Shown one piece after another: positions 1-2,071 of a stretch of DNA of 64,000 bases; position 1 is the stretch's first letter; every line of letters starts with the position of its first letter. The notes beneath the pieces were generated by a model that searched no databases, was not told where the DNA came from, and worked only from the letters and a program-made list of their open reading frames with translations. A program made the translations under genes and the position numbers. The stretch comes from Lentisphaera marina (GTDB lineage Bacteria > Verrucomicrobiota > Lentisphaeria > Lentisphaerales > Lentisphaeraceae), in the NCBI RefSeq assembly GCF_028745505.1, contig NZ_JAQZZL010000001.1, positions 62,001 to 126,000 of the forward strand. Direction: 5' to 3'.

Positions 1-25
1 CAAGATCGGTAAATAATCATTGCCT

Positions 26-616
26 ATGTCACCTGTATATAAACGAATCATACTCAAACTTAGCGGTGAAGTTCTTCGCTCTGACGACAACTGCATCAGC
101 CCTGCCATTGTACAAGAAATGTCTGAGGCTATTAAATCAGTTGTCGATATGGGCGTCGAAGTTGCTCTAGTTATTGGCGGAGGAAATATCTTCCGCGGAC
201 TTAGCGCTTCTCGCAAAGGGATGGATCGTACCACAGGTGACTACATGGGAATGATGGCCACTTGCATCAATGCCCTGGCTCTTCAAGATGGCTTGGAGAG
301 TCTCGGCATCCCAACTCGCGTTCAATCTGCCATTGCTATGCAGCAGATTTGCGAACCCTACATCCGACGTAAAGCCGTAAGGCACCTCGAAAAAGGTCGC
401 GTCGTGATTTTTGCTGCTGGTACAGGCAGTCCTTATTTCTCTACAGACACAACAGCTGCACTTCGTGCTAACGAGATCAATGCTGAAGTCGTCTTAAAAG
501 CTACTAAAGTTGATGGTATCTACGATAAAGACCCTGCAAAATTTGATGACGCCGTGAAGTATAAGGAAATCTCTTATACAGAGCCTTTTGCAAAAGTCAT
601 AAAACAAGCTGAATAA
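26..616 (+). CDS. pyrH: UMP kinase, IS-truncated N-terminal part
   Basis: UMP kinase phosphorylates UMP to UDP in pyrimidine nucleotide synthesis (cytosolic, amino-acid-kinase fold, hexameric). The N-terminal ILKLSGE, the VIGGGNIFRG motif and GTGSPYFSTDT are all present. I choose ATG at 26; a TTG at 20 is an alternative start. The native frame is lost after base 582, where an insertion sequence begins. The last ten codons (PFAKVIKQAE, stop 614-616) are element DNA, so the product would be about 196 aa against the family's usual 235-240. The missing C-terminal 50 residues lie at 1918-2071 in the same register. Removing the element and one 4-bp CAGA duplication gives a 236-aa protein. The truncation removes the conserved VMDSTAF segment, so the product is probably inactive. 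Confidence 0.93.
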   Translation: MSPVYKRIILKLSGEVLRSDDNCISPAIVQEMSEAIKSVVDMGVEVALVIGGGNIFRGLSASRKGMDRTTGDYMGMMATCINALALQDGLESLGIPTRVQSAIAMQQICEPYIRRKAVRHLEKGRVVIFAAGTGSPYFSTDTTAALRANEINAEVVLKATKVDGIYDKDPAKFDDAVKYKEISYTEPFAKVIKQAE

Positions 617-666
617 AAGTAGAAACATGTTATCTCAATAGTTACCAAAACAAAAAGAGAAAAAAC

Positions 667-1755
667 ATGAATCTACCCGGCTTATGGGATACCATAGAAA
701 AGTATTTATTTCCAGGCTTAGAAGAACTTTTAGGCGGAGAATTAACTAAGAAAGAGAAAGAGTTTGTTCGCATCTGCACAATAACTGAGCTTGATCAGTT
801 CAGCCATGAATTTGAATGGTGTGGATTTGGGCGACCTCCGAAAGATCATTTTAATATAGTGAAAGCTTACATAGCCAAATCCGTTTATAACTTCGATACA
901 ACAAGATCTTTTATAGACTTTCTCAAATCAAGTACAAAGATACGTCGTTTATGTGGTTGGGAATTTGCAAAACAGCTTCCTCATGAAAGTACTTTTTCTA
1001 GAGTATTTGCAGAAATCACCGCCTCTCAGCTCTGCCAAAGAATCCATGAATTCTTAGTGGTAAAACATTGTGGAGACACCTTAGTACCGCACATTAGTAG
1101 AGATTCTTCAGCAATTGAAGCTAGAGAAAAAGTCATGTCTGAACCAGGGGCTGAGCCTAAAGCCCCTAAGAAACGAGGGCGGCCTAAAAAAGGTGAGATC
1201 CGAATTAAAGAAAAAACCGTAGTGGAAAAGCAGGTCGACCGGTCACTTGAAGAAAACTTAAAAGAGCTCCCAACGCACTGTAATAAAGGGACAAAGAAAA
1301 ACAGTAATGGTTATAAAGTTTCATGGAAAGGCTACAAGCTTCACTTAGATTGTATTGATGGAGATATACCAGTCGCAGGCCTATTGAGTTCAGCGTCTTT
1401 ACACGACAGCCAAGCGGCAATCCCTTTAGCACAGATTAGCGCACAACGCATAACTAATTTATATGATTTAATGGATGCAGCCTATGATTCACCTTCTATC
1501 CATAAATTCAGCCATCTTTTAGGACATAAATCTATTATTGATCACAATCCTAGAAAAACTGGGGAGAAAAAGATTTTTGACCCGCCTGAAAAAGAACGGT
1601 ACAAACAGCGGTCATCTGTTGAAAGAGTCTTTTCGAACTTAAAAGACAACTATGGTGGTAGGATGATCAGAGTACGAGGACATGCAAAAGTCATGACTCA
1701 TCTAATGTTTGGCATTATTGCAATAACAGCAAACCAACTCTTCAAGACTATTTAG
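667..1755 (+). CDS. DDE transposase (IS5/IS1182-like)
   Basis: This 362-aa transposase should catalyse cut-and-paste movement of the element at 583-1913. It shows an N-terminal DUF772-like region, a first catalytic Asp candidate in SRDSSAIEA, a basic linker with KKRGRPKKG, a second Asp candidate in LMDAAYDSP, and a C-terminal YKQRSSVERVFSNLKDNYG stretch matching the Y-R-E-K signature of IS4/IS5 transposases. A purine-rich AAAAAGAG precedes the ATG. The frame is intact, so the element may still be active. IS5 versus IS1182 cannot be settled without a database comparison. Confidence 0.85.
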   Translation: MNLPGLWDTIEKYLFPGLEELLGGELTKKEKEFVRICTITELDQFSHEFEWCGFGRPPKDHFNIVKAYIAKSVYNFDTTRSFIDFLKSSTKIRRLCGWEFAKQLPHESTFSRVFAEITASQLCQRIHEFLVVKHCGDTLVPHISRDSSAIEAREKVMSEPGAEPKAPKKRGRPKKGEIRIKEKTVVEKQVDRSLEENLKELPTHCNKGTKKNSNGYKVSWKGYKLHLDCIDGDIPVAGLLSSASLHDSQAAIPLAQISAQRITNLYDLMDAAYDSPSIHKFSHLLGHKSIIDHNPRKTGEKKIFDPPEKERYKQRSSVERVFSNLKDNYGGRMIRVRGHAKVMTHLMFGIIAITANQLFKTI

Positions 1756-1813
1756 CAACTAACATAAAACTATACGTCATGATCAACTTGCGTCCATTTT
1801 TGGCTTGTTTATA

Positions 1814-1846
1814 CTCACATGTATCCAATTTCGAGATACATGTGAG
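1814..1846. repeat. perfect 12-bp hairpin inside the IS
   Basis: CTCACATGTATC at 1814-1825 is followed by a 9-base spacer and its exact complement at 1835-1846. It lies between the transposase stop and the right terminal repeat. No T-tract follows on either strand, so a classical terminator is unlikely. A transposase-binding or structural role is possible but not shown. Confidence 0.6.
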
Positions 1847-1917
1847 CGAGATCTTAAGATTTATCCTGGATGAACTTTTTAATCACTCTAATTCAGGACT
1901 TTTGCAAAAGGATCAGA

Positions 1918-2071
1918 TTGTCTCAGTAAGCAACTTCAAGTCATGGACTCAACTGCTTTCACTTTATGCATGGACAACAACTTACCTATTATTGTTTTTG
2001 ATTTCCATCAAGAAAACGTTCTGAAGAATATCCTCTGTGGCAACACAGATGCTGCAACAGTCGTAAAATAA
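1918..2071 (+). pseudogene. pyrH: UMP kinase C-terminal remnant
   Basis: This stretch encodes the missing C-terminus of pyrH in the same codon phase as the N-terminal part: QVMDSTAFTLCMDNNLPI, then a tail ending in TVVK and TAA at 2069-2071. It has no start codon or ribosome binding site of its own. It begins right after the second CAGA target copy of the insertion sequence. There are no internal stops or frameshifts, so the interruption is recent. With the upstream 557 bases it makes 236 codons plus stop, the normal UMP kinase length. Confidence 0.9.

Follow-up and report, generated by a model that had tools for sequence, protein, structure and literature searches.

How a bacterium forms uridine diphosphate (UDP) when the one gene found for its uridine monophosphate (UMP) kinase has been cut in two is the question raised by the left end of a 64,000-bp stretch of the Lentisphaera marina genome (G000:C1:62001-126000, hereafter the window; the genome comprises 5.3 Mb in 3 contigs). 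UMP kinase is the product of pyrH, a gene that is normally not dispensable in Escherichia coli. In the window, the only pyrH found is split after codon 185 by a 1,334-bp insertion sequence, a copy that apparently arrived recently. The split likely abolishes normal UMP kinase, in which case UDP would likely be formed via the weak UMP activity of Cmk, the cell's cytidine monophosphate (CMP) kinase. Taken jointly, a split pyrH, a UMP kinase that is likely lost and UDP that likely comes from Cmk make up the reading that we tentatively prefer, with a chance somewhat below even. Three of its points we infer: that the truncated product of 196 amino acids (aa) is inactive, that the allele is carried by most cells and that UDP comes from Cmk.

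The interrupted pyrH gene

The 5′ part of pyrH occupies positions 26..616 of the window on the + strand. Its reading frame, from the start ATG at 26, is native up to base 580 (Thr185), enters the element at 581 and continues through 11 element-coded codons (EPFAKVIKQAE) to a stop codon at 614-616, which gives a product of 196 aa (185 native plus 11 element-coded), or of 198 aa if the TTG at 20 is the start. The 3′ part follows at 1916..2071 (+) with 51 codons and a stop, its translation being DCLSKQLQVMDSTAF...VVK (51 aa), and within it a putative separate C-terminal frame of 42 aa could run from ATG 1943 (Met195) to the same stop (1943..2071, +). The UMP kinase profile TIGR02075 is likewise matched in two pieces, with positions 1-188 in the first part of the gene and positions 193-232 in the last (on 1943-2068), and no single frame at the locus holds the complete domain, which reaches to about profile position 226-233. 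The N-terminal piece alone scores 260.9 bits against the profile's cut-off of 243.9, a score that is no measure of activity.

Comparison with the sister species, L. profundi and L. araneosa, indicates what the site looked like when empty. Their PyrH proteins read ISYTDCL(S/T)KQL(Q/E)VMDSTAF across the joint, and since the relatives have ACAGATTG or ACCGATTG at the insertion site, the empty site was ordinary pyrH. The alignment with L. araneosa (G002) stops at window position 582 and picks up at 1916 with a 2-bp overlap, and the target was therefore an intact gene. A mobile element thus interrupts pyrH after codon 185, and neither flank has decayed. A first-pass annotation, made from the letters of the window, had described a 1.33-kb element inserted in pyrH and an undecayed rejoined frame, and both descriptions hold: the ends are exact element ends, the element has 16 full-length copies, TIGR02075 falls into two pieces, and the 185 + 51 residues are in register with PyrH of the sister species. 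The points at which that annotation ended and resumed the native frame (582 and 1918) move to 580 and 1916.

The insertion sequence and its copies

The element lies at 581..1914 in the same orientation as pyrH (+), its ends having been set from 16 full-length copies and one split copy. Comparison of the copies gives an 18-bp left end (581..598, +) and an 18-bp right end (1897..1914, −) that match at 17 of the 18 positions; inverted ends had been recognized before, at a length of 15 bp. Between them is the transposase gene (667..1755, +; 362 aa), whose product has DUF772 and DDE domains, and past the transposase stop, ahead of the right end, there is an inverted repeat with a perfect 12-bp stem and a 9-base loop (1814..1846); no run of T follows it, and the terminator prediction does not list it. 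The general features of an insertion sequence are all present, i.e., a transposase gene inside inverted ends, multiple copies and target duplications. As to its family, the transposase scored under the cut-off of all eight NCBIfam insertion-sequence models that it matched, including the IS1182 model NF033551 (90 against 270 bits) and three IS5 models (48.8 against 140, 48.1 against 110 and 39.5 against 140 bits), and we therefore filed the element under neither IS1182 nor IS5.

All 16 full-length copies in the genome are displayed as 100% identical (14 at the top score and 2 slightly lower), which rules out chance, and a 17th copy is divided in two by another insertion. This second insertion, of ~1.65 kb, lies between L018 and L019 (G000:C1:685741-688734), and 5 bp of the element are repeated at both sides of it (query 727-731 in both halves). 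No match to the element was found in L. profundi (G001), in L. araneosa (a draft of ~80 contigs) or in a further genome (G003), while a single distant relative of it is present in each of two others, with 68% identity in G004 and 65% in G005. Since there are many near-identical copies here and none in the sister species, the spread of the element in this lineage would appear to be young.

The bases GA before and C after the boundaries drawn in the first-pass annotation recur in all 16 full-length copies and at both outer ends of the 17th. Using ends corrected in this way, a flush target duplication of 4-5 bp was found at 13 of the 16 full-length copies, and the split copy has ACTT at both outer flanks. 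At pyrH the flush duplication is only 1 bp, and at two other copies (L005 and L017) there is none. The 4-bp CAGA duplication that had been reported at pyrH (579..582 and 1914..1917, both +) is a real repeat, but it is one only when the terminal GA and C of the element are counted as target: the last two bases of the left copy and the first base of the right copy belong to the conserved ends of the element. Recombination between copies was considered as the cause of the absent flush duplication at pyrH and rejected, because the flanks there are a single gene in register. The two copies without any flush duplication (L005, G000:C2:1744716-1746049; L017, C1:1915824-1917157) may have arisen by imprecise insertion or be old rearrangements. 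Five of the 16 full-length sites split a frame that keeps 36 codons or more on either side, the frames at L005 and L017 being uncertain as their duplication is undefined. When families were assigned by searching each piece separately, the five split frames proved to be transposase genes (L008 and L016), a DUF1552 gene (L010), a gene for a solute-binding protein (L011) and pyrH, which is the sole clear housekeeping gene among them.

Structure of the truncated product

In a model of an intact PyrH from a sister species (predicted local distance difference test, pLDDT, 90.2), the last elements of the fold are helices at 184-189, 197-205 and 220-225 and strands at 210-214 and 232-235. The 196-aa product has lost the conserved C-terminal fifth of PyrH and with it, going by this model, the helices at 197-205 and 220-225 and both strands. 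A model of the hybrid keeps the earlier elements and has a short helix at 186-190, with a mean pLDDT of 71 for residues 181-190 and of 52 for the last residues; its structure comparison was not used as evidence of activity, since part of a known fold will be matched to that fold regardless. The ATP donor site of the Staphylococcus aureus UMP kinase is described as being formed mainly by Loop56, together with Loop78 (residues 194-201; PMC12847342). Our alignment, with the numbering checked by the GGGN motif, places Loop78 at residues 190-197 of the PyrH studied here, and the native equivalent of this loop is missing from the 196-aa product.

A search of public proteins scored the 8,000 candidates sharing most words and listed 120. 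Three residues of the lost segment, D196, A199 and C203, do not vary among the 79 PyrHs of alignment A2; the rows of this alignment and of A1 were hand-picked from the 120 listed proteins, and of the six proteins with a short C-terminus described below only P0071 is in A2. All of the 110 PyrH loci examined extend to residue 235 or beyond, a set (the 30 best-scoring loci of the TIGR02075 search plus 80 kept of 289) that is biased to good matches. As it stands, the 196-aa product is probably dead or badly crippled.

Cmk as the likely source of UDP

The first-pass annotation took the split of pyrH to be recent, which it apparently is, with no decay on either side, and named a second UMP kinase among the possible explanations. 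Within the assembly no such kinase came to light. Protein, TIGR02075 and PF00696 searches for a second pyrH gave TIGR02075 matches in the two pyrH pieces only. Three other genes in the genome belong to PF00696, and these were rejected as spare UMP kinases, as they were identified as argB, proB and aspartate kinase, each over its own cut-off. A eukaryote-type UMP/CMP kinase (TIGR01359) was not found over cut-off in the genome, where other P-loop kinase families were not searched. The single match to TIGR01359 (90 against a cut-off of 207.6 bits) has adk as its best model (125.8 against a cut-off of 168 bits) and was rejected as a UMP/CMP kinase, being the Adk that is also present in both sister species; PF00406 likewise matched Adk and nothing else in each of the three Lentisphaera genomes. 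The sole ADK-family genes are L133:1453-2061 (−), L151, L152 and L153, and the copy in this genome, a short one, falls under the NCBIfam adk cut-offs. PF02224 yielded one Cmk over cut-off and one weak match below it. This Cmk scores 207.6 bits on the (d)CMP kinase model TIGR00017, above the cut-off of 135.55, and is 88% and 84% identical to Cmk of the two sister species. Judged by their sequences, Adk and Cmk are those typical of the genus, and Cmk is intact and ordinary. The evidence for the absence of a replacement kinase from the assembly is strong, not absolute, at an estimated genome completeness of 94.47% (both sisters are given as 96).

Among the routes by which the cell might cope, we favour bypass by Cmk, which has the best precedent. 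In E. coli, pyrH is reported to be deletable in the presence of plasmid-borne cmk, with growth even when uninduced, and not with the empty plasmid (PMC3386227), and the introduction of a paper on Yersinia Cmk cites mssA/cmk as a suppressor of smbA/pyrH and ascribes a low UMP kinase activity to Cmk (PMC3603445). By analogy, Lentisphaera Cmk is predicted to replace PyrH. This route was absent from the list of explanations in the first-pass annotation, despite the direct genetic precedent described for E. coli (PMC3386227). In a separate report, eight E. coli lines were evolved in rich medium with fluoropyrimidines, and four of them acquired a modified pyrH (PMC7725501); altered alleles were therefore tolerated there.

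Several points weigh against UDP supply by Cmk in a cell with an inactive PyrH. The chromosomal dosage of cmk is reported to be insufficient in E. coli (PMC3386227), and Cmk here shows nothing unusual compared with Cmk of the sister species. The genome is incomplete to the extent given above, and the reading draws on assembly sequence. The C-terminal end of PyrH is also lacking from 6 of the 119 other listed PyrH proteins (P0031, P0047, P0048, P0071, P0109 and P0115), two of which (P0031 and P0109) stop near the position of this insertion; they may be truly truncated, frameshifted or cut off by the end of a contig, and the six count mildly against the notion that the end is always kept. Finally, the element-coded tail EPFAKVIKQAE resembles the segment that it replaces, with K190 identical and D/E, L/F, S/A, L/I and D/E at 186, 188, 189, 192 and 196. 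A resemblance scoring this high was reached by 2.3% of shuffles and by 3.1% of 5,981 window 11-mers; it would fit residual activity and, having been noticed post hoc, is suggestive at most.

Alternative explanations

The altered PyrH might still work, with the 196-aa piece, its tail replacing the lost helix and Loop78, keeping some activity alone or pairing with the 42-aa piece from ATG 1943. We regard this as unlikely, if deserving serious attention, for the two strands and two helices are gone, the invariant D196, A199 and C203 with them, and the resemblance of the tail was spotted only afterwards. As regards the 42-aa piece, the + strand of the element yielded no promoter-like site, so the C-terminal piece would need read-through from the operon, and a clear ribosome-binding site for ATG 1943 is not visible by eye.

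An intact allele might instead coexist with the interrupted one, the insertion being present in some cells only or, in polyploid cells, in some of the genome copies only, while the assembly shows just that path. This too is unlikely in our estimation. In its favour, the element is multicopy and looks active, and polyploid Thermus thermophilus is reported to have tolerated insertions in nearly all genes, including essential ones, by way of coexisting alleles (PMC13140390). The assembly, however, contains no empty pyrH site (nothing in it matched a 30-base pattern, even with 3 mismatches allowed), a lethal allele would be expected to be rare in a haploid culture, and no information on the ploidy of Lentisphaera was found. 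The best other public PyrH among the candidates scored shares 96% identity with the query across 97% of its length and is therefore probably from another species.

We give a distinctly small chance to a natural split UMP kinase made by one transposition, in which the element would have supplied the N-terminal piece with a new cap (EPFAKVIKQAE, replacing the helix and Loop78) and the final helix-strand-helix-strand block would be made as a separate 42-aa protein from ATG 1943. An assembly artefact, in which the repeat has been misplaced and pyrH is intact in the sequenced strain, is very unlikely. In its favour, multicopy repeats are where assemblies err, and the pyrH site lacks the flush duplication of most copies. 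Against it, L005 and L017 lack that duplication too, each junction coincides exactly with an end of the element inside a single gene that stays in register, and open reading frames of at least 100 aa cover 90% of the window. Least probable of all is a second UMP kinase of an unsearched family or in DNA outside the assembly (e.g., a plasmid), for which the incomplete genome leaves a little room, against an assembly of only 3 contigs and one pyrH plus one ADK match in each sister genome, from which no second UMP kinase is expected in the genus.

Occurrence, significance and gene neighbourhood

A pyrH match was obtained in 5,374 of the 5,426 complete E. coli genomes, always at a single place and with at least 80% of the gene covered, in a survey that joins pieces up to ~860 bases apart, with smaller inserts invisible to it; the 60 rows listed are all single-piece. 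The other 52 genomes gave no pyrH match. In 37 of 38 relatives, pyrH is over cut-off and in one frame, and the remaining one (G008, completeness 85) has only a 22-bit match. No published account of an insertion sequence within a natural pyrH appeared in the literature listings searched.

Being known from one assembly only, this isolated case is a curiosity that lends itself to a clear test and does not amount to a new kind of system. Should the allele be fixed in a living strain, the bacterium would be one that naturally lacks a normal UMP kinase, and where its UDP comes from would be directly testable, the candidates being promiscuity of Cmk, an enzyme in two pieces or intact copies that are hidden. 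Because eukaryotes have no detectable homologue, UMP kinase has been put forward as an antibacterial target (PMC12847342), and a natural bypass, if true, would bear on that proposal. If the allele is present in only part of the population, the locus is instead a warning about inferring the loss of an essential gene from one assembly.

A flavoprotein gene (PF02441) lies downstream of pyrH, and the order of the neighbours is the same in both sister species. The two genes upstream are presumably rpsB and tsf. The presumed gene for ribosomal protein S2 (L141:6706-7839 (−), L140:6105-7166 (+)) has a long, repetitive C-terminal tail rich in Lys and Ala, with which the length of the product varies among the three Lentisphaera species (353, 377 and 345 aa).

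Comparison with known systems

The element resembles DDE elements of the IS5/IS1182 type in its size (~1.3 kb), its transposase with DUF772 and DDE domains, its short inverted ends and a target duplication of 4-5 bp at most of its sites, while differing from these families in a transposase that stays below every NCBIfam insertion-sequence cut-off. An insertion within a gene held to be essential is shared with Thermus thermophilus, where the reported case is an engineered library under selection (PMC13140390), in contrast to a natural element in one assembly of Lentisphaera. In E. coli, Cmk was provided on a plasmid and pyrH was deleted deliberately, whereas Lentisphaera has a single-copy, ordinary cmk, a natural break in pyrH and a rescue that is hypothetical; what the two cases would have in common is the loss of pyrH and the lack of any plausible nucleoside monophosphate kinase for UMP other than Cmk.
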